IMG/VR virus record: IMGVR_UViG_3300002835_001196 | Coordinates: 1 to 22,381 of that record | Reading direction: 5' to 3' (one strand) | Length of the DNA stretch: 22,381 nt | Source: a virus | Shown here: piece after piece, positions 10,047-21,961 of the stretch | Numbering within the stretch: position 1 is the first letter of the stretch | How the letters are laid out: every line of letters starts with the position of its first letter | Translations under genes and position numbers: made by a program | The notes under the pieces: generated by a model | What the model was told of the DNA's origin: nothing | The model's input: only the letters and a program-made list of their open reading frames with translations | Databases searched by the model: none

Positions 10047-13000
10047 TTATCTTTGTCCTCTAATTCTTTGTGAATCAATATATTTAATTTCTCCCAAGAC
10101 TGCCTTGGCAATTGTGTCTGGTGTAGCACTAGAGCCTCCAACGGTAATGCCTACACTATAATTATACACTGTGTTGGAGTTGTCGCTAATAGTATTTACA
10201 GATGTTCTTGATGGGGCAGATATAAAAAGAGACGGCTCAGCACTATATTTTTCTTGAGAATAGCCAGCATTTAAAAATGATGGGAATTTAGATTCATTGA
10301 TTTTATTTAAAAGTGGTCCAAATGCTTTTGTAGATTCTTTATTAATAACAAATTCTCCAGGTGTTAAAAGTGCTGGAACTTTGTCTGTTAAGCCAGTTCC
10401 AGGAACGACTCCACCAGCAGCCATTTTTTTAATTTTTCCACCATAAGCCTTTTGTACCGTTGTTCCCTTAATCTCATTTATAATAACAGTTCTAACTTCA
10501 GTAATTCTTAATTCTACGGATTTGGATTTTATGTCATTCCACTTATCTGAAATTCCTTTTGCAACCTTTTCACTTGCTATAAGTTGATCTTGGAATTCTT
10601 TGCCTTTAACCTTAGCCAGGTCAATTGCAAGTTGTGCATCTTCCCATCGCTCACGCTGTGCATCAATCGTGTCAAGTTCTGCCTGAAGTTCTTTTTTTGT
10701 TGCTTCAAGTGCAGACTCCGCAGCCTCTAGTTCTTCCTGCCTTTTTGCTAGTCTGCCATTTTGAATTAATAAAATATCGTCTTCAATTTTTGTAATTTCG
10801 GCAAGAAGTGGAATTCTTTTTTGCTCAAGTGCATAAATTTTATCTTGATTTACAAGAATTTGATCTTCAACAACTTTTCTTTGAGTTGACAAAGCATAAG
10901 ACTGTCTTTCAATTTGATATTGTCTTTGTGCAATCTGATCTCTTGTTAAACCGCCAGGACTTCTTTGAGCGCCAAGTTCAGCCTCTCTTGCAGCCTGAAT
11001 AACATCTCCAGCACCTCTTGATGCGGCCTCTGCTCTGCTTGCTCTCATCTCTTGTGCTGCATTTGCTGCTGCAGAAATATCTCCCTGTGTTAGCGCATCT
11101 GCAAGACCAATTTGTTGTTTTTGTTGACCTATAATGTCTTGGTTAATTTCAGAAACTTTTTCTAGTGCTGCTGCTTGTGCATCATACTTGGCATTAATTC
11201 CTTCTGCAGCCTTATCCATAATGGTTAGGTCTTCAGAAAGTCTAGACGACTCATCTTGCAAAAGGCCAAGAGGTCTGTCAAACTCCATTTCAATCTTACG
11301 TTGCAAGTCATTTATAGACTGCTGTAATTCTTCAATTGGACGATTAATAGTTAATTCAATATTACGTTGCTTAGTTGCTATGGTGCTTTGTAAACCATCA
11401 ATTTCATCTTGAATCTTTTTTACATTATCTGCTGCATCTGCCGCTGCTTTTTCGGCAGCCTTTATCGGTTCTTCAAATCTGTCTTGTATCTCACGCTCAA
11501 GAACATCATAATATTCCATTGCGGCTGATTTTCTTTTATCAAACTCTTTTTGTATTCCTTCTGGTGTTTGAAGATTAATATTAATATCAATTGCTTCGCC
11601 AGTTCTTATAGCATCTAGATATTCTTTTATTCTTCTAGTTCTATCTTCTACGGTAACAGATTTGTCTACAAAAGAATTCATTAAGGTTGGATTGTTTACA
11701 ATTGTTTCAATATCTTCAAAGGTTGCACCCATTGCTAAAAGACTAGGTATAATTCCAGAAAAACTTTCCTTTAATGTGTTTTCATCTCTTAATGATGTAA
11801 GAAAATCTCTTATCGCAGCAGAAGATGATCTTTTTTCAATATCAATCATTAATGTTTTAATTGTTTCAAGTTGTTCTGGCTTAATTGTTCCTGTTGCAAG
11901 TCCAAGTGCAATTACTGAGTCTTTTGCATATTCAAGGGCTGTTGCTGAATCAAAGCCAGCCTTTTTAAGCATATTGTATGCTGTAGTTGTATTTTTTAAT
12001 TCTGCTTGTTGATTTTGCAATTGCTTAACAGCCAATGCAAATGGTGAATCTTCTTTTTTGCCAGTTCCAGTACCCTTATTTATTTTATCTGTTTCTGCTT
12101 TAACAAGATCAAACAATTCTTGAACAGCACTTACATCTGATTTTATTTTTGCTCTTACTCTGTTTGCTGCTCGTGCTGCTCCACCATCGCTAGATTCAGA
12201 TGCAGCCTTAAGTTGCTTGACCATTGCTGCAGTAATTGTTGAAACACCGAGCATTGCTGCTTGTGCAATAAGGAATTGATCTGAAACATTTTTAATTCCT
12301 ATTGCAGTTTTTGCAAGATCTCCTGGCATATTTTTTAAAATATTGTCAAGCAAGAACATTGCTTGTGGCTCTGGCATATTTTCAATTGTCTTAGATATTG
12401 CAGCAAAGGACTCATTAAATTGTGCTGCAGTTATAGAGCCATTTTCAATTTGTCCAGATAATCCATTAAACATTCCTGCAATTACTTTAGATGTTGTGGC
12501 TACACTCTTTTGTAATCCTTTTGATAACGTTTTTTCTGTATAGGTAATAATTTGTCCAGTAGCACGATTAAAACCAGTTTTAATTTCTTCAGAGTATCCT
12601 TCTGAAAACTGCTTTCCAAAAGAATTTCCTAAGTTAACAGCGGTTCTTTGAAGTGTTGCACGACCTTTTTCGGTTGCAATATCAATATTAGCAAAATCAA
12701 ACTTAATGTTTGTTTTGCCAGATTCTTCCTGCAATGCTTTGATAATCGTATCTATGTTTTCTTTTGCAAATCCTTTACCCTTTAGTTGTATTGCTAAAGA
12801 ATTAAAAATAAGTTTTGCTTGTGCATCTGATGTGCCTTGAAGTGCTTTAATATCTTTGCCAAAGTCTTTTTGGAAAGATTCTGTGGCTCTTAATTGGTCA
12901 ACTTGTGATCGTTTTTCATTATTTAAAATTAAAGATGGGCCAGTTCTTTCTAGTTTTGTCTGTGTTGGAACAACGTTAAAAAATTCTCCAAGGTTTTTTA

Positions 13001-16000
13001 TTTTATCTGCAGAAAGTGTTGCTGCATCTCCAAGACCCTCAATAGCAAGTCTTTCTTTTTCTCTTTCTGCATTTATTATTTTGGTTATAGAGTAAAGTCC
13101 AATAAGACCTGTTGTGACAAGTCCGACTGGACCCGCAAAACGGAATAAGAATTTTCCAGCAGTTAAAAGGTTCTTTTTAAATCCAGCAAGACCTCCACCT
13201 TTTGTAAATAAAGTAGAGACTTTTGCACCAATTTGTTTTCCTGCAGCATCCTTACCAAGACCTTGCATTAATCCAGCGGCAGCACTTGCTCTTGTTGCAA
13301 CCAACTCCGTAACCTTTGCTTGTGTCAACAGTTGTGTAACAGACATCAATGCAAACAATAATCCAGAATATTTCATTACTTGTTGAGATAGATTTCCAAG
13401 TGGTCCACTTGCCATAGAACCTGCACCAGCAAGAGATGTTAGTGCAAACGTTCCAGCCATAAGCCCCTTGTTCATTGAATCAAGTCTTTGTGCAGATGTC
13501 TTTCTTGCTGTTATTTCTTTATCTGCTGCATCTTTGGTTGCCTTTGACATTGCTGATTGACGTGCTTCTTCTAAAGTAAGTTCAGATGATGCTTCTGGTC
13601 TACCAGACCTTCTTCTAACCCTTGGTCCACCACTTTGTGTTCCAGTTTCTGTTAGTGTTGGTGTTGGTGCGCCTTCTTCTCTAAATGCAGCCCTTCTTGC
13701 TCTACCGCTTTGTGTTCCAGCAACTGCTGCAGTAGCAAGTTCCTGACCAGCCATTGCAACATCGTCTTTTCTGTTATCCATTCCAACTTCAAGACCACGA
13801 GCAATATCTTCTCCAATTGGAATTGTTTTTCTTGATGGAGACTGTGTACCTGCTGCTTGTGCTGTTGCCGCAATTGCTGCATTAACATTTGCGGCACTTT
13901 CTTGTGCAAGTGGAGCATTTCTAAAGTCTCCAACAACCTTTTTACCTCTACCATAACTTGTTCCACCAGGAGTTATTCTTCCGCCCTTTGATCCTCTACC
14001 ATAGCCTGCTGGCAGTGCTGCCTGCTGGTCTGGAGTTAATCCTTGGTATCTTATTTCTGTAACTCTGTTTATTGCTTCCTCAAATACAGCATCAAGGCCA
14101 TTTCCTAATTTAAGAACATTTTCTCTAGTTTGCTGTGCAACAGTATCCATTGCAACATAAACTGTATCATCAAATGCTTCACCTTTAGCAAGTGCCTCTT
14201 GTCTCATTTGCTCAATCTGTGCCTGGCTATCAACAATAATTCTTGCACCATTATCATATGCTTCTTGCAAGTTTTGTTGGAACCTTGTATCAAATGCTAC
14301 TAACTCATCTCCAAGTTGTTCCATATTACCGCCGCCCATTTCAACGGATTGACGGAATTTTTCTACTCCACCAATTTCAAAATCAGTAAGAACATCTTGT
14401 AAACTTGCCCCTGCACCCTGCATTGCATTATTTAAGAATCCAGTTAATTCTAAACCAAATCCAGTTTTAAGATCAACAAGTGCTTCTGCTCCAGCGGCAT
14501 CAACAAACTGTTTTAGTCTTGCTTGAGTTCTTGGATCAACTACTGCTCCGCTTTCCAGCAATGGGCCAGCAGCAACTCTTCTTCCAGTATCTAGATGTGC
14601 AAACTGTAATTCTTCTTGTTGCCCAATATTTGCATTATATTGTGCTCTAAATGCTTTTAGTCTTTCCTTTAATGATTTTTCTGAAAGTTGTATTTCCTGT
14701 GAAGCAGTTGTAACTAAAGATTTAAAATCTTGAACAAGTGCTTCTGGTACAGCCTTAAGTTCTTTTTCTAAAAACTCTCTAATTTTTGCTTGACTTCTTT
14801 GTTGAGCACCAGCCGCAATGGACATAGCAAACTCTGCGTCACCACTTCCAAGACTTCCTCTTCCAGTTTTATACCCCGGAATATTTCCAGCAATCATTCC
14901 ATTAATTAATGCACCATACTTTTTTGACATCTCTGCTGGAATTACTGTTTCTCCAGGAGTTAGTAGTGCTAATTCTGTGTCTTGATTTCCAGTACCGCCG
15001 ACAACTACTGGCTTTCCCTTTGCTCTCTTGGTAGGTGCGCCACCTGGCGCTCTCATCATGCCAGGATTTACGGCTGCGAATTTTGCAGCAGCCGCAGTTG
15101 CCTGTTGGTATGCTGCTATGAGTTGTGCAACAGCACTTGATTCTGCTGTAAATGTTTGTGTTAGTCTGGCGTGTGATTGGTCTAGTGAGTGAGATGCTGC
15201 GGCTGCATCAATCTGCTCCATTGTTAAATACTCAGTTTGTTCACCAAGTATTTGTGTTTGTCCAGTTAGTCTTAGGTATCCATTACGCAATACCATAGCA
15301 CCTTTAACAATGTTTGCCAAACCATTTGCAAGCAAACCAAATGCCATTAATGCTACAGGACCAATTGCTCCAATTGCAACTGTTAATACAACTATTGCTT
15401 TCTTTACTCCAGTAGATAGGTTGTTAAACTTTTCTACTATGCCGCCAACAAATTCTAAAATTGGTGTCACTGCTTGCATAAATGTTTGTCCTACTGGAAC
15501 AAGGGCAAACTTTAAATCTTCTACAGACTTTCTAAATTTGTTCATTGCAGAATCTGCAGTCATACCTAATTCTGATTCAGAAAGGGCTGCTAGTTCTTCA
15601 ATAGAAGTTCCTGCTAAATCTAAAACACGACTTGCCTGACCTGTTTCATTTATTACGTTTGTAAATAATGTTGACAAACGAGCAAACTGAAACTTTCCAA
15701 AAAGTTGCTCAATTGCTCTTGCACGAGTTAGGGGATCAAGAGTATCAAGTGCTTGAGCAAACTCAACAACTGTTGTTTTTAGATCTCCTTGATTTCCTTC
15801 AATAATTTTCTTTATATTAATTCCATAGCCTGCAAGCATTGCAGATGCTTTGTCAGTTGGATTAATTAATGCTGCAAGACCTGACTTTAATGCGTTTGCA
15901 CCTTCTGATGCATTGATTCCGCCTTCTTTCATTGCAGCCATAAAGAATGCTAAATCTTTTACATCTCCACCAAGTTGTTCAATAACTGGAGCAACCTTTG

Positions 16001-17024
16001 GAATTGCAGTTGTAATATCATCAAGAGATACAACTGTTTGGTTTTCTACTGCGTTAAGGAAGTCAATAGATGATGCAAGTTGATCAGAAGACATTCTAAA
16101 AGCATTTTGTAAAGATATTGTTGTCTCTAGTGCTTTTTGTGCATCTACTTGTCCAAGAATAGAAAGTCTTGTTGCTTCTGTTGTCTGACGTTGTAGGTCA
16201 ACTCCAGAAAAACCTGCTGCTGCAGCCTCTGCTGCAAGCCCAACTGTTTGTGAAACAGCAATTCCATACTGAGTAAACATCTGTCCAAGTGCGGTTATGT
16301 TATCTAATGCCTGGGTTGTTTCCTCTGTTGGAGTAAATAAATCTCCATAAACTTTTCTAAACTTAATTGTTTGTGCTTCCATTTCCATGAAAGTACGTGT
16401 TGCTGCTGTTCCTAAAGCCATCAATGGCAGAGTAAAGCCAACCATCAACTGTCTACCAGCCCACTGAGTATTCTTACCAAAATTTAATAAATTGGTAGAG
16501 CCTTGCTTAACTAGTTGATTAAATATTGCTTGTTTTTGTGCTGCCATTTGTGATTGAGTAGAAAAATTACTCATATCAAGTTGATTAGGCATGATGGCAA
16601 TTGCCTTCATTGCACCGCTTGTATCACGACCTAATTTAATATATTGAGTTTGTAGTCTTTTAACACGATCTTCTGCTACCTTGCCAATTGTGTCAAACTC
16701 TGATTTAAATAATTTACCAAATGTCTTGGTTGATCCTCCAGCAAACCTGAAGTATTCTCGCATAGAGAACTTGTTTTTTTGAAGTGAGTCTGTAAAAGAT
16801 TCTGCTGTTGTTTTTACGGTGCGGAGTTCTGCAGAAAATGATCCAATAGCATTTACGCTATTAAGAAAATTCTTCTGCAGATCTCTCTGCGCCAATGCAG
16901 CCGACTCGCTGCTTTTAGCGATAGATGTATGAAACTGAGATATCTGACGTTGTAAAGCCTTTAGTTGGGCTAACGCTTCAGACGTATCAATATTAACGCC
17001 AATATTAGCATTAACATCAGCCAT
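10047..17024 (-). CDS. Tail tape measure protein (TP901 family)
   Basis: A 2325-residue protein that sets tail length and is ejected with the DNA. Residues ~185-450 match the TP901 tape-measure core (AGRQLMVGFTLPLMALGTAA, AAEAAAAGFSGVDLQ, FMAAMKEGGINASEGANALK). Hydrophobic, membrane-spanning-like segments occur at ~541-571 (VVLTVAIGAIGPVALMAFGL) and ~1296-1315. A typical tape-measure motif SPSRKTIPIGEDIARGL lies near 1061. Two copies of an 'LLTPGE.VI' motif occur near 686 and 2220. Residues ~1837-2155 are a long coiled coil with a short internal repeat near 1887-1930. GAGGTG supports the ATG at 17024. By the usual rule of about 0.15 nm per residue, the tail would be roughly 350 nm; this is inference. 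No lysozyme or peptidase motif was recognised. Confidence 0.95.
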   Translation of the reverse strand: MADVNANIGVNIDTSEALAQLKALQRQISQFHTSIAKSSESAALAQRDLQKNFLNSVNAIGSFSAELRTVKTTAESFTDSLQKNKFSMREYFRFAGGSTKTFGKLFKSEFDTIGKVAEDRVKRLQTQYIKLGRDTSGAMKAIAIMPNQLDMSNFSTQSQMAAQKQAIFNQLVKQGSTNLLNFGKNTQWAGRQLMVGFTLPLMALGTAATRTFMEMEAQTIKFRKVYGDLFTPTEETTQALDNITALGQMFTQYGIAVSQTVGLAAEAAAAGFSGVDLQRQTTEATRLSILGQVDAQKALETTISLQNAFRMSSDQLASSIDFLNAVENQTVVSLDDITTAIPKVAPVIEQLGGDVKDLAFFMAAMKEGGINASEGANALKSGLAALINPTDKASAMLAGYGINIKKIIEGNQGDLKTTVVEFAQALDTLDPLTRARAIEQLFGKFQFARLSTLFTNVINETGQASRVLDLAGTSIEELAALSESELGMTADSAMNKFRKSVEDLKFALVPVGQTFMQAVTPILEFVGGIVEKFNNLSTGVKKAIVVLTVAIGAIGPVALMAFGLLANGLANIVKGAMVLRNGYLRLTGQTQILGEQTEYLTMEQIDAAAASHSLDQSHARLTQTFTAESSAVAQLIAAYQQATAAAAKFAAVNPGMMRAPGGAPTKRAKGKPVVVGGTGNQDTELALLTPGETVIPAEMSKKYGALINGMIAGNIPGYKTGRGSLGSGDAEFAMSIAAGAQQRSQAKIREFLEKELKAVPEALVQDFKSLVTTASQEIQLSEKSLKERLKAFRAQYNANIGQQEELQFAHLDTGRRVAAGPLLESGAVVDPRTQARLKQFVDAAGAEALVDLKTGFGLELTGFLNNAMQGAGASLQDVLTDFEIGGVEKFRQSVEMGGGNMEQLGDELVAFDTRFQQNLQEAYDNGARIIVDSQAQIEQMRQEALAKGEAFDDTVYVAMDTVAQQTRENVLKLGNGLDAVFEEAINRVTEIRYQGLTPDQQAALPAGYGRGSKGGRITPGGTSYGRGKKVVGDFRNAPLAQESAANVNAAIAATAQAAGTQSPSRKTIPIGEDIARGLEVGMDNRKDDVAMAGQELATAAVAGTQSGRARRAAFREEGAPTPTLTETGTQSGGPRVRRRSGRPEASSELTLEEARQSAMSKATKDAADKEITARKTSAQRLDSMNKGLMAGTFALTSLAGAGSMASGPLGNLSQQVMKYSGLLFALMSVTQLLTQAKVTELVATRASAAAGLMQGLGKDAAGKQIGAKVSTLFTKGGGLAGFKKNLLTAGKFLFRFAGPVGLVTTGLIGLYSITKIINAEREKERLAIEGLGDAATLSADKIKNLGEFFNVVPTQTKLERTGPSLILNNEKRSQVDQLRATESFQKDFGKDIKALQGTSDAQAKLIFNSLAIQLKGKGFAKENIDTIIKALQEESGKTNIKFDFANIDIATEKGRATLQRTAVNLGNSFGKQFSEGYSEEIKTGFNRATGQIITYTEKTLSKGLQKSVATTSKVIAGMFNGLSGQIENGSITAAQFNESFAAISKTIENMPEPQAMFLLDNILKNMPGDLAKTAIGIKNVSDQFLIAQAAMLGVSTITAAMVKQLKAASESSDGGAARAANRVRAKIKSDVSAVQELFDLVKAETDKINKGTGTGKKEDSPFALAVKQLQNQQAELKNTTTAYNMLKKAGFDSATALEYAKDSVIALGLATGTIKPEQLETIKTLMIDIEKRSSSAAIRDFLTSLRDENTLKESFSGIIPSLLAMGATFEDIETIVNNPTLMNSFVDKSVTVEDRTRRIKEYLDAIRTGEAIDININLQTPEGIQKEFDKRKSAAMEYYDVLEREIQDRFEEPIKAAEKAAADAADNVKKIQDEIDGLQSTIATKQRNIELTINRPIEELQQSINDLQRKIEMEFDRPLGLLQDESSRLSEDLTIMDKAAEGINAKYDAQAAALEKVSEINQDIIGQQKQQIGLADALTQGDISAAANAAQEMRASRAEAASRGAGDVIQAAREAELGAQRSPGGLTRDQIAQRQYQIERQSYALSTQRKVVEDQILVNQDKIYALEQKRIPLLAEITKIEDDILLIQNGRLAKRQEELEAAESALEATKKELQAELDTIDAQRERWEDAQLAIDLAKVKGKEFQDQLIASEKVAKGISDKWNDIKSKSVELRITEVRTVIINEIKGTTVQKAYGGKIKKMAAGGVVPGTGLTDKVPALLTPGEFVINKESTKAFGPLLNKINESKFPSFLNAGYSQEKYSAEPSLFISAPSRTSVNTISDNSNTVYNYSVGITVGGSSATPDTIAKAVLGEIKYIDSQRIRGQR
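11230..11500 (-). repeat. Degenerate ~22-residue repeat inside the tape measure
   Basis: Two adjacent 22-residue units, RNIELTINRPIEELQ and RKIEMEFDRPLGLLQ with their following residues, share the pattern 'R.IE....RP...LQ'. A weaker third unit (REIQDRFEEPIKAA) lies about 43 residues before. They fall in the coiled-coil part of the protein, at about residues 1844-1930. Confidence 0.55.
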
Positions 17025-17055: not shown

Positions 17056-17364
17056 TTAATCGTTAGAGTCTGCAGCAAGTGTTGTGCCTGATGCTGCTTC
17101 TACGATCTTGTAGACAGTTGGTAAATCTAGAACTTCTTCTAGTTTCTCAATGTCTTCGGCTAGTTCTGGCTTATACTGCTTCATAGCAATCTGAACACAT
17201 TCAACAAGAAGAGTCATTGACTTCTCGTTATTATCCGCCACCGCCGCAACTCCCTCAAACTTTGCCATGAATGGTCGAAGTAGAGAGATTTTTAAAGGAC
17301 GAACAGAAATTTCTGTACCGTCCATAAGTGTGAGTTTTTGAGCCTCATACTTTGTTGTTGCCAT
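17056..17364 (-). CDS. Tail assembly chaperone, short form (G-like paralogue)
   Basis: A 102-residue protein just upstream of the tape measure, where siphophages encode the chaperone that coats the tape measure during tail assembly. It is homologous over nearly its whole length to the N-terminal half of the next gene upstream: DGTEISVRPLKI versus DGTELEIVPLKI, FMAKFEGV versus FMVEFEGV, AMKQYKPE versus CMKQYYPE, and LDLPTVYK versus LDLPTIYK. By eye about 40 of ~95 positions are identical. It ends with a short acidic tail (AADSND) and lacks the T-like extension. Only 31 bases separate it from the tape measure, so there is no room for a frameshifted T frame. A consensus AGGAGG lies four bases before the ATG, and a promoter-like motif lies in the 44-base gap upstream. 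Confidence 0.85.
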   Translation of the reverse strand: MATTKYEAQKLTLMDGTEISVRPLKISLLRPFMAKFEGVAAVADNNEKSMTLLVECVQIAMKQYKPELAEDIEKLEEVLDLPTVYKIVEAASGTTLAADSND

Positions 17365-17368
17365 TTTG

Positions 17369-17374
17369 CCTCCT
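17369..17374 (-). promoter_or_regulatory. Consensus ribosome-binding site of the short chaperone
   Basis: A full AGGAGG lies four bases upstream of the ATG at 17364. It contrasts with the long chaperone, which has no recognisable site. This fixes the start and suggests much stronger translation of the short form. Confidence 0.8.
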
Positions 17375-17379
17375 ATTTT

Positions 17380-17389
17380 AGGTTAACCT
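17380..17389. promoter_or_regulatory. 10-bp palindrome, possible operator
   Basis: AGGTTAACCT is a perfect palindrome overlapping the predicted transcription start of the short-chaperone promoter. It could bind a repressor or activator. It may also be chance in a short AT-rich gap. Confidence 0.35.
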
Positions 17390-17391
17390 TA

Positions 17392-17400
17392 ATTATAGCA
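17392..17400 (-). promoter_or_regulatory. Extended -10 promoter-like motif before the short chaperone
   Basis: The minus strand reads TGCTATAAT, a perfect extended -10 box, in the 44-base gap between the two chaperone genes. No good -35 is present, which extended -10 promoters can tolerate. The expected start of transcription is near 17385, about 20 bases before the ATG. Confidence 0.5.
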
Positions 17401-17408
17401 TGAATAGG

Positions 17409-18113
17409 CTAATTTTTCATAAGGGATGGATCTCTTGCATCTTCATAATCAAGCCCCATTCCAATACCAAATCCAGCCTTTCTAGCATTTTGTCCTTGAA
17501 GTGATAAAACATCATTGCTATCAGAAGTGGCTCCACCACTAAATACCCTAGCCTTCATGTCTTCCCATTCTTTTTGACCTTTATCAGGATTAGTAGATCC
17601 TTCTAAATCTACACCCTGTATTGCTGCCAAAAATTTCTTTTCTTCATAATCTAGTTCTCTTTTACTAGATAAAGTAACCATGAGTTCTGGCATAGATAAT
17701 GATTCTTCTAGTTCTTGATAGTCTTTCCAGATACCCAGAATAAATACCTCTGCTTCTAATTTTGCAAGGTCTAGATCATCCCATGTCATACCGCTGGATT
17801 TTGCCTGTTCTACAACTGGCTCTTCTGATTTTTTGTTTATTTTAATTCCAGCAGCAATATCAATAACCTTATATATTGTTGGTAGGTCTAGATGATCTTC
17901 TACTAAATTAAATATTTCTGGGTAGTATTGTTTCATGCAAACACCAACACATTTTACCAATACTTCAATTGCTGAATCATCGTCTGAGGCATTTTTTACA
18001 CCTTCAAACTCAACCATAAACTCTCTTAAATATTTAATCTTTAATGGTACTATTTCTAATTCTGTTCCATCAATTAAATAAATATTTCCCCTGTTATATA
18101 CTTCTGTAGCCAT
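17409..18113 (-). CDS. Tail assembly chaperone, long form (G-T-like) in one continuous frame
   Basis: A 234-residue protein. Residues 1-90 are a chaperone domain paralogous to the downstream short gene (YLIDGTELEIVPLKIKYLRE, HLDLPTIYKVIDIAAG). After a polar junction (INKKSEEPVVEQAKSS, from ~92) comes a C-terminal region absent from the short copy: LAKLEAEVFILGIWKDYQEL, LMVTLSSKRELDYEEKKFLA and a polar, flexible tail. This layout matches G-T fusion chaperones, whose T part contacts the tail tube protein, but here no frameshift is needed to join the parts. The start ATG at 18113 has no good ribosome-binding site (GATAGAATAGATAAAATG), and a strong terminator lies just upstream, so expression is probably low. 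Identification as the long chaperone is from paralogy and position. Confidence 0.85.
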   Translation of the reverse strand: MATEVYNRGNIYLIDGTELEIVPLKIKYLREFMVEFEGVKNASDDDSAIEVLVKCVGVCMKQYYPEIFNLVEDHLDLPTIYKVIDIAAGIKINKKSEEPVVEQAKSSGMTWDDLDLAKLEAEVFILGIWKDYQELEESLSMPELMVTLSSKRELDYEEKKFLAAIQGVDLEGSTNPDKGQKEWEDMKARVFSGGATSDSNDVLSLQGQNARKAGFGIGMGLDYEDARDPSLMKN

Positions 18114-18121
18114 TTTATCTA

Positions 18122-18134
18122 TTCTATCATAGAA
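18122..18134. repeat. 13-base palindrome upstream of the long chaperone
   Basis: TTCTATCATAGAA is a perfect 6-1-6 palindrome, 9 bases before the start codon of the long chaperone and just after the terminator U-tract. It is a possible operator or weak RNA hairpin near the start codon. Confidence 0.4.
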
Positions 18135-18142
18135 ACAACAAA

Positions 18143-18164
18143 GCCCACCCCCGAAGGGATGGGC
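18143..18164 (-). terminator. Strong Rho-independent terminator after the tail tube gene
   Basis: The minus-strand RNA folds into a 9-bp stem, GCCCAUCCC with GGGGUGGGC (eight Watson-Crick pairs and one U-G), closed by a very stable UUCG tetraloop and followed by UUUGUUGUUU. It lies between the tube stop (18187) and the long chaperone start (18113), and should sharply lower transcription into the chaperone genes. Confidence 0.88.
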
Positions 18165-18186: not shown

Positions 18187-18822
18187 TTATGTTGCTGGTG
18201 TCCAGGTACGATCTACGATCTTACCGTATGAACCAGATGTGTCCTCTGGTAGGAGACGGAATGATACTTCAAACATTGAAGCCTCATCACGCTTTGCAGA
18301 TACTGTTACATTCTCAATTGAGAGTGCACGGTATGCGCTGTAAACACGCTCTACGTATGCTGAGTCCGCACAGTCACCTGTACCTGGACCTACAGCAATA
18401 ATTCCACGCTCTACTGGACATTCGCCAATATCGCCTGCGGATAGGTCAAGTGCCTGTCCGTTAGATGTGCTCTTTGTGCCTGACAACTGATCAGAGTTGT
18501 AAGCAAGTGCAAGAAGAAGGTTCTCAAGTGTTGCTTCAGCAAAAGCCGTTGCCATGTTCACTTGCATTCCCTGCTTGTATAACTTAGCAACGTCAAGAAG
18601 TTGGTCAACCTGTACTTCGCCGAAGTCTGGTTGGAACTGCAATTCAAGGCCGTTCATTGTATAACCTACGTTAGTAAAATCAGTGTCATCAGCGATTGTC
18701 TCTCTGTATGACTCGGATGATATATAAGCAGGTAGGGTTCCAGCAGTTAGTGTTGTGTCTGCGACGAAAAGCGCTGCAGCACCAACAATAATGTTAGTAG
18801 ACGTACCACGAGTGTATGCCAT
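18187..18822 (-). CDS. Major tail tube protein
   Basis: A 211-residue protein that should polymerise into the tail tube. It lies between the tail terminator and the chaperones, the standard place for the tube gene. The sequence shows a tube-protein pattern: an N-terminal arm (AYTRGTSTNIIVGAAALFVA), a central helix (VDQLLDVAKLYKQG), and a long strand pair (ENVTVSAKRDEASMFEVSFR). The GC content is higher than its neighbours: two hand-counted 60-base lines gave about 52% and 45%, versus 35% in the tape measure. This is as expected for a highly expressed virion gene. A strong ribosome-binding site (AGAGGTG) precedes the ATG. A candidate extended -10 motif lies in the 77-base gap upstream, and a UUCG-loop terminator follows the gene. 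No sheath gene follows, so the tail is non-contractile. Confidence 0.88.
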   Translation of the reverse strand: MAYTRGTSTNIIVGAAALFVADTTLTAGTLPAYISSESYRETIADDTDFTNVGYTMNGLELQFQPDFGEVQVDQLLDVAKLYKQGMQVNMATAFAEATLENLLLALAYNSDQLSGTKSTSNGQALDLSAGDIGECPVERGIIAVGPGTGDCADSAYVERVYSAYRALSIENVTVSAKRDEASMFEVSFRLLPEDTSGSYGKIVDRTWTPAT

Positions 18823-20597: not shown

Positions 20598-21583
20598 TAC
20601 AATACTCCAGGTGTACCAAAGTTTGTTATATACTTTTCTAGAATTCTGTCTACTAGGATGTTGCCTGTACCAGCAAGTGCAGATTTGTCAATCTTAATCT
20701 TATATTGATCGGTAGAATAATCAAGGATATATCTCTTGTGGTATTCCATTCTTCCACACTTAATATCATCAATAAGCATTGTTATGGCATCTTGTATATC
20801 ATAAGGCACTACCTTGTACCCAGTTTCTAGTGAGAATAAGTAGTTGAAAGTTATTGGAAATGTAACACCTGCTGCAACTGCCAAGGTTACGGGGCTATCC
20901 TCTGTGTCATATAAATAGATAGAATCTGACTCACCAAGCGGCACACCCTTTGGTGTTCCAACTGCTCTGACATATGAATCAGTAGTTTGCTGATTCCACT
21001 CTTTAATAATTGCTGTTTTATCTTTTGTTAATAAGTAACTCCACTCAAACAATGCTTGTGGATCTTGTGTTGAATCCCAAACAAGTTCATTGTTTTCATA
21101 AGCCTTTAAGATTTTATAAACTCTGTCCCAGATAGCAAGGTAGTCTGTTCCGTTGCCATTTACTTCATACCAAGATCTTTCATAATAAAATCCTCCAGGA
21201 ACAATGGAATCAATGATTGCTCTTGCTAAGTCTTCATACTGTGTATACTCATTAATTTCAGTTGCTGTTCCTGACCCATACTTTTTTGCAAGTGTGGTTG
21301 GATTAACATACGGGCGCATTACCTCTAGATTATCTTCAACAACAATCTCTGCCTGCTCACCATCTTCTACCTCATAGATTGCCAAATAATATGATTCATC
21401 ATAAGAACTAAACAAGGATGGCAAGGTGTATTCAATTTGTGATCCAGAAGTAGATGTTATATTTTCTTCAACTTCAATAACATTTCTAGAACTGTCTTGA
21501 ATCAGCAATAAATACTCTGTGTTCGCTAGTGGAACATCATAAGATATTGTAAGCGGGTATGGTGGTAAGCGCAATATTTGCAT
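20597..21583 (-). CDS. Head-tail connector / adaptor protein with N-terminal beta extension
   Basis: A 328-residue protein. The first ~90 residues are beta-rich (PPYPLTISYDVPLANTEYLL, SYYLAIYEVEDGEQAEIVVE), like an immunoglobulin-type sandwich. From ~90 a helical part begins: RPYVNPTTLAKKYG, EYTQYEDLARAIIDSIVPG, WDRVYKILKAYENNELVWDS. This resembles adaptor proteins (HK97 gp6 / SPP1 gp15 group) that bind under the portal. The C-terminal region (VPYDIQDAITMLIDDIKCGR, ILVDRILEKYITNFG) is again helical. The N-terminal domain and the full length are larger than the ~100-150 residues usual for simple adaptors. The start is linked to the upstream gene by TAATG. The role is inferred from order and helical pattern. 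Confidence 0.75.
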   Translation of the reverse strand: MQILRLPPYPLTISYDVPLANTEYLLLIQDSSRNVIEVEENITSTSGSQIEYTLPSLFSSYDESYYLAIYEVEDGEQAEIVVEDNLEVMRPYVNPTTLAKKYGSGTATEINEYTQYEDLARAIIDSIVPGGFYYERSWYEVNGNGTDYLAIWDRVYKILKAYENNELVWDSTQDPQALFEWSYLLTKDKTAIIKEWNQQTTDSYVRAVGTPKGVPLGESDSIYLYDTEDSPVTLAVAAGVTFPITFNYLFSLETGYKVVPYDIQDAITMLIDDIKCGRMEYHKRYILDYSTDQYKIKIDKSALAGTGNILVDRILEKYITNFGTPGVL

Positions 21584-21936
21584 TAGATTTTACCGTAGTG
21601 TTTGGCTACTTCTTTAGGCGATGCTTCACGCACTGCTTTATGAGTTAACCATTTAACGGATGCCTCCTTAGTGACAATGTTATATCCTTTTTCAAGGGCA
21701 CCCACACCAGTCCAATGTAGATTACGCTCTGAGTAAAGTGCAATCTTTTCTTTTGGATTCTCTACTGCTACTTCTTCTACTGGATCTTTTCTTGGTACAA
21801 AAGGCAAAATAGCCTCTAGTATTTCCTCTTTTGTTTCAGTTCCATATAAATCTATATTGTGCTTTTTGGCATATGCCTGTAATTGTGGTACTGTCTTTTT
21901 AGCAAATTTTTCTACTACTTCTACTGTTGTTGCCAT
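21583..21936 (-). CDS. Head-module protein with Rho-N / SAP-like N-terminal domain
   Basis: A 117-residue protein. Residues ~5-45 (KKTVPQLQAYAKKHNIDLYG followed by TKEEILEAIL) form a helix-extended-helix motif like Rho N-terminal, SAP or LEM domains, which often bind nucleic acid. A linker rich in Glu, Pro and Val follows. The second half (IALYSERNLHWTGVGALEKG, KWLTHKAVREASPKEVAKHY) is a small domain seen between capsid and connector genes in several phages of Gram-positive hosts. The ATG at 21936 is supported by GGAGG five bases upstream; a GTG four codons earlier would overlap that site. A promoter-like TGATATAAT is close upstream. It may act at the capsid inner face or connector; the function is not established here. 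Confidence 0.75.
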   Translation of the reverse strand: MATTVEVVEKFAKKTVPQLQAYAKKHNIDLYGTETKEEILEAILPFVPRKDPVEEVAVENPKEKIALYSERNLHWTGVGALEKGYNIVTKEASVKWLTHKAVREASPKEVAKHYGKI

Positions 21937-21952
21937 AATATCCTCCACTGCT

Positions 21953-21961
21953 ATTATATCA
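21953..21961 (-). promoter_or_regulatory. Extended -10-like motif before the Rho-N/SAP-like gene
   Basis: The minus strand reads TGATATAAT, only 16 bases before the ATG at 21936. A transcript from here would have a leader of about 10 bases, which leaves the GGAGG at its very 5' end, so the site is doubtful. Confidence 0.28.

Follow-up and report, generated by a model that had tools for sequence, protein, structure and literature searches.

Many related uncultured phages carry two tail assembly chaperone genes in place of a programmed frameshift

Siphophages usually make both of their tail assembly chaperone products from one locus by ribosomal slippage, and this G/GT frameshift is among the most conserved recoding events of long-tailed phages. 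We analysed a stretch of 22,381 nucleotides, positions 1 to 22,381 of the IMG/VR virus record IMGVR_UViG_3300002835_001196 (which will be referred to as the window), together with its relatives. Judged by sequence comparison, an arrangement of two separate chaperone genes, a long GT fusion followed by a short G, is real and widespread in a large family of uncultured phages. Quite probably the G gene was duplicated, the upstream copy was fused to T and the downstream copy stayed G, the ratio of the two products now probably being set at initiation. The comparison supports the homology of the genes, the assignment of their frames, the mutual exclusion of the two arrangements, the loss of the slippery heptamer, the asymmetry of the start signals and the faster change of the G domain in the long gene.

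All genes of the locus lie on the minus strand and are transcribed in the order major tail protein (MTP), long chaperone, short chaperone and tape measure protein (TMP). The MTP gene (18187..18822) matches phrog_2175, an Ig-domain tail protein; the TMP gene (10047..17024), which occupies the same place in all complete loci, encodes 2325 aa with a PF10145 PhageMin_Tail match (E 3.5e-28). The long chaperone gene (17409..18113, 234 aa) consists of a G domain (residues ~1-97), a linker and a T-like domain (~105-234) in a single frame, residues 1-97 matching phrog_10504 and residues 128-190 phrog_10474. Its product aligns to the G and then to the T ORF of Streptomyces phages, which occupy two frames there and one frame in the window. 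The short gene (17056..17364, 102 aa) encodes a G domain only, which also matches phrog_10504 and is a paralogue of the N-terminal domain of the long protein (43/100 positions identical and 65/100 positive by BLASTP, E 3e-27). The sequence-only reading had placed both ORFs at these positions, long first and short second, had taken the long gene for a chaperone domain with a T-like extension in one frame, and had estimated by eye that about 40 of ~95 positions were identical in its short paralogue; the ORFs, phrog matches, G/T alignment and BLASTP bear this out. It had also seen no room for a classical G/G-T overlap. Consistent with this, neither the short gene of the window nor the junction in its long gene has a T-like ORF continuing in another frame, and the TMP gene starts ~30 nt past the stop codon of the short gene.

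Searches by tblastn yielded matches in 131 phage records with E values as low as 1e-29. The nearest annotated homologues are the chaperones of Streptomyces phages (Stanwilliamsviridae) and, more weakly, those of the Rhodococcus phages Trina and Dorin. Between the same neighbour genes, these phages have a single G ORF, with T in the -1 frame, and the joined frameshift product is annotated in Yaboi and Dorin. Several Streptomyces phage records give the T frame a late start codon (as few as 60-90 nt) or label it hypothetical (Faust and Forrest, L170/L178; L171, L177 and others), so that the GT product is missing there despite a CCCAAAT.

Structure prediction, which had been proposed as a check, gave both G domains one and the same fold rather than unrelated ones: AlphaFold2 modelled each as two strands (a beta-hairpin) followed by four helices, at moderate confidence (pLDDT 69 and 72). 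The best structural match of the short model in BFVD is named 'Tail assembly chaperone' (TM 0.80). Matches to solved structures in the PDB were weak (HK97 chaperone 2ob9, E 3.9), some family members weakly matched phrog_1932, phrog_330 and NF047360, and a PDB sequence search and Pfam gave no useful match apart from the PF10145 of the TMP. With their position between MTP and TMP, a shared N-terminal domain, a C-terminal extension on the long form and homology to annotated chaperones of characterised phages, the two genes represent, at the gene level, G/GT chaperones in the broad sense.

The search for relatives, likewise proposed beforehand, comprised seven viral-contig scans and annotated phages. 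It yielded 500 loci, whose chaperone regions were unique in 353 cases. Classification by MTP, G, T and TMP profiles placed every unique complete locus in one of two architectures. Among the unique complete loci, 180 carry a fused GT followed by a short G and 144 a split G/T with a single G, the split loci being the frameshifting ones; mixed loci, that is, a fused gene without short G or a split G/T with a second G, were not found in any of these 324. Queries with the T part, which favour neither class because they are independent of G copy number, returned 97 fused loci with a short gene and 47 split loci, duplicates still included, with zero exceptions. Sister phages from the environment that share the MTP/TMP module have G followed by T in the -1 frame with canonical slippery heptamers.

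Apparent exceptions were inspected individually. Six loci classed as 'MTP,G+T', which looked like fused genes without a short partner, all end within ~150 nt of the end of the long gene. Weak G-model matches (E up to 10), one each in 75 of the 144 split loci, were considered as a hidden second G; where compared with the ORF table (L200 and L235), they corresponded to the T ORF itself. The scan of the genome collection contributed a single relative, the split locus L500 (CAINGU010000031.1), which lies in a MAG labelled uncultured cyanobacterium. Either a phage contig was binned wrongly here or the tail module occurs in a broader range of hosts.

The reading frames and junctions clearly separate the two architectures. 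Each of the 151 split loci has T in the -1 frame (median overlap 49 nt), and 138 of these overlaps contain a canonical heptamer in frame, most often CCCAAAC, GGGAAAC or CCCAAAT. In the fused loci such a heptamer was found at 23 of 198 junctions and in 6 of 192 tails of short genes, being absent from 175 and 186, respectively, and the combination that defines the lambda type (T in the -1 frame, an overlap and a slippery heptamer) was found neither in the window nor in the 198 fused loci. At the aligned site, where split G genes read GAC CCA AAC, 20 short genes read GAT/GAC GCA/GCT AAC/AAT, and by this alignment the altered site is a fossil of the lost heptamer. The mutual exclusion in 324 complete loci and the loss of most heptamers from fused and short genes agree with the earlier proposal that two genes replace the frameshift. 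The 13 split loci without a canonical heptamer are of the Yaboi/Coruscant/Karimac/Samisti12 type, and those of their overlaps that were displayed share CCCGGAA. In Yaboi, Coruscant, Wofford, Karimac, Samisti12, Mandalore and one IMG/VR contig (L001, L002, L087, L174-L176 and L179), T is in the -1 frame without a canonical heptamer, and CCCGGAA at DPE is the first common candidate.

Start signals were compared in 78 non-redundant fused and 74 split loci with shuffled sequences as control. In the window, the long gene has an extended -10 element, TGATAGAAT (18121..18129, minus strand), 7 nt ahead of its ATG, so near that its mRNA should be leaderless. The short gene has an extended -10 element, TGCTATAAT (17392..17400, minus strand), 27 nt ahead of its ATG and a Shine-Dalgarno (SD) sequence AGGAGG (17369..17374, minus strand) at a spacing of 4 nt (duplex -10.2 kcal/mol). 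The same partition was observed across the loci. An SD core of at least 4 nt precedes 76/78 short and 0/78 long genes, the SD duplex is stronger for the short gene in 77/78 pairs, and its median is -2.9 kcal/mol for long genes and -10.2 kcal/mol for both short genes and split G. Extended -10 elements were found 4-10 nt before the long ATG in 68/78 fused loci (shuffles: mean 1.6, max 5), 20-40 nt before the short ATG in 74/78 (mean 2.5, max 8) and at the same distance before the split-G ATG in 70/74. The exact hexamer TATAAT occurs in 14/78 long, 73/78 short and 55/74 split cases. The close element is absent from 10/78 long genes, and the leaderless reading leaves these uncovered.

A TA-like -10 box whose first T lies ~10-12 bp before the start codon is a mark of leaderless genes, a common type in Actinobacteria (PMC3160421); for actinophages, too, leaderless mRNAs have been predicted (PMC4351075). 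The long gene, with a close -10 box in most loci and no SD, agrees with this description. Calling its start 'weak' is nevertheless tentative, as Actinobacteria can translate leaderless mRNAs well. Elsewhere in the window, a gene at 21583-21948 (minus strand) starts with GTG, has a weak SD (-2.3) and carries a perfect extended -10 element, TGATATAAT, 4 nt upstream (~21953-21961); it likely represents a second leaderless start. The same TGATATAAT also stands 9 nt before gene 2124-2567, where GGAGAG adjoins.

Between MTP and the long gene, a terminator-like hairpin, GCCCATCCC-TTCG-GGGGTGGGC (18143..18164, minus strand), can be read from the sequence, adjoined by the T-rich TTTGTTGTTT (18133-18142). 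The intergenic stretch folds at -30.9 kcal/mol, and similar hairpins follow the MTP gene in sampled loci, fused and split alike. In the window (18133-18164), as in the sampled fused and split relatives, a new promoter directly follows the hairpin. Together they could act as a switch between high expression of MTP and low expression of the chaperones and TMP.

The two G copies have evolved at different rates. Across the same genome pairs, mean identity is 53% for long-G and 70% for short-G, the short gene is more conserved than long-G in 36 of 39 disjoint pairs, and it is closer than the long one to split G in 78/78 loci. The distance from the most recent common ancestor to the tips is 1.39 for long-G versus 0.55 for short-G. 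Since the short gene is more conserved between genomes and closer to split G, it is, by these sequence measures, the conservative copy, and the G domain of the long gene is the fast-evolving one. Purifying selection acts on both chaperone genes; median dN/dS is 0.17 for the short gene, 0.31 for the G part and 0.20 for the T part of the long gene.

We propose that the ancestor had one locus, which would have produced short G and, rarely, long GT when ribosomes slipped by -1 on a heptamer close to where G ends. On the branch leading to the window, the G gene would have been duplicated and the upstream copy joined in frame to T, yielding a dedicated GT gene, and the downstream copy would have retained the ancestral G coding sequence, promoter and SD and lost T and the slippery site. 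Duplication and fusion presumably were one linked event. The ratio of short to long protein, formerly derived from slippage, would now probably be fixed at initiation: the short gene, with its AGGAGG and an extended -10 promoter of consensus type, would provide G in excess, and the weaker extended -10 element of the long gene, together with its leaderless start, presumably keeps GT low. The terminator-like hairpin should in addition shield the long gene from MTP transcripts. We regard it as evenly balanced whether, since the duplication, leaderless initiation from a weaker promoter versus SD-led initiation from a consensus promoter has set the G:GT ratio in place of slippage efficiency. The short and long proteins together would act like lambda gpG and gpGT, and by analogy to lambda we infer that GT bridges MTP and TMP. 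Chaperones of this class are characterised by binding of G to TMP and of T to MTP and by the absence of both proteins from the virion.

Gene duplication followed by a splitting of roles, as suggested by the sequence-only reading, is supported by the paralogy, the mutual exclusion and the heptamer loss. Its rival is a capture, in which the second G was acquired by recombination from a frameshifting relative and the resident G and T were fused before or after. In the G-domain tree, long-G (100/97) and short-G (100/92) each form one clade, and short-G joins the environmental split G (99/95) with long-G outside both, as a capture would predict; the closeness of split G to the short copy in every one of the 78 loci and the promoter and SD of the short gene, which are arranged as in split G, point the same way. 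The faster evolution of long-G, however, draws it outward in the tree, and a common clade of long-G and short-G was not rejected (p-AU 0.39), so that tandem duplication and capture are not separated; we consider a capture possible but doubtful. In the T tree, fused T is placed among split T with weak support. Fused loci cluster in the MTP+TMP tree, with one split locus (L318) inside, beside the fused L209, pointing to a recombinant or to a return to frameshifting. The result of two changes on this tree is due to that neighbourhood; the idea that the fused state arose twice independently was rejected, long-G and short-G each being a single clade.

Three further explanations were weighed. The short paralogue might have taken over another function, for example as a regulator or inhibitor, with the long protein alone doing the chaperone work. 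An average identity of only 41% between the two G domains within a genome would allow for this, but the short copy has kept the ancestral sequence, promoter and SD, and in 324 complete loci the presence of this copy and the absence of the frameshift go together with no exception, which makes another function unlikely. Still less probable is a reverse recoding as in dnaX, in which slippage at an A-rich junction followed by an early stop would yield short G from the long gene too. An A AAA AAN heptamer does lie in frame at about 20 of the 198 fused junctions, and in one fused long gene (L259; L259:3108-3869) an in-frame CCCAAAT is retained at the ancestral site with a TAA at once in the -1 frame, so that slippage would yield a truncated G. 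Yet 175 of 198 junctions, including AAC AAA AAA TCA in the window, lack a canonical heptamer, A-runs are presumably to be expected in AT-rich, lysine-rich linkers, and such recoding would make the short gene redundant. Finally, as the window comes from one metagenome contig and has six consecutive A at the junction, the in-frame fusion might be an assembly or sequencing indel. The chance of this is negligible: one continuous frame runs through each junction of 198 unique fused loci on independent contigs, which rules out an assembly error, and the fused state clusters phylogenetically.

Duplication of G with fusion of one copy to T remains the preferred reading, and its outcome resembles known systems in part. 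Lambda-type G/GT (Xu et al. 2004, via PMC5009743) likewise comprises a short and a long form with a common N-terminal domain, encoded in the MTP-TMP interval with a T-like extension on the long form, and the gpG:gpGT ratio in lambda is about 30:1 (PMC5009743). Unlike in the lambda type, two genes are present here, the long one in a single frame, and the heptamer is gone. T4-like phages possess separate short and long fusion chaperone genes (Vladimirov, Gautam and Davidson 2022, via PMC10885494; PMC12846349), and this arrangement without a frameshift, as defined in PMC10885494, is also found here. T4-like phages are myophages, and the likeness is one of description; no link to their chaperones appeared in the family and structure searches. 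Here, sister phages that share the tail module use a frameshift, and the two genes differ in their start signals. The Stanwilliamsviridae (Yaboi, Coruscant, BillNye and others) have the closest characterised G, T, MTP and TMP homologues and gene order; unlike the window, they carry one G, with T in the -1 frame, and no second G. In Microbacterium cluster EA, some subclusters seem to express two chaperone ORFs without an evident frameshift; the excerpt of PMC7302621 describes separate expression only and reports neither paralogy nor in-frame fusion. Given the T4-like and Microbacterium EA precedents, the two-gene principle is not new. Within the open-licence literature searched, the features that appear to be new are the existence of this arrangement in the present phages, a sister group that frameshifts, an exclusion that is perfect and the partition into leaderless and SD-led starts.

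For annotation, the finding argues for caution, as such genes should not be joined or split by rule. For the biology of these phages, some groups rely on slippage and their sisters, which share the tail module, on two genes. Which of the two is used corresponds perfectly to the copy number of G, and this provides a natural experiment on the purpose of slippage. Should nothing but the short-to-long ratio be important, slippage ought to be replaceable by two genes that are tuned at initiation, as appears to have happened here, and the ratio hypothesis becomes testable by locus swaps.
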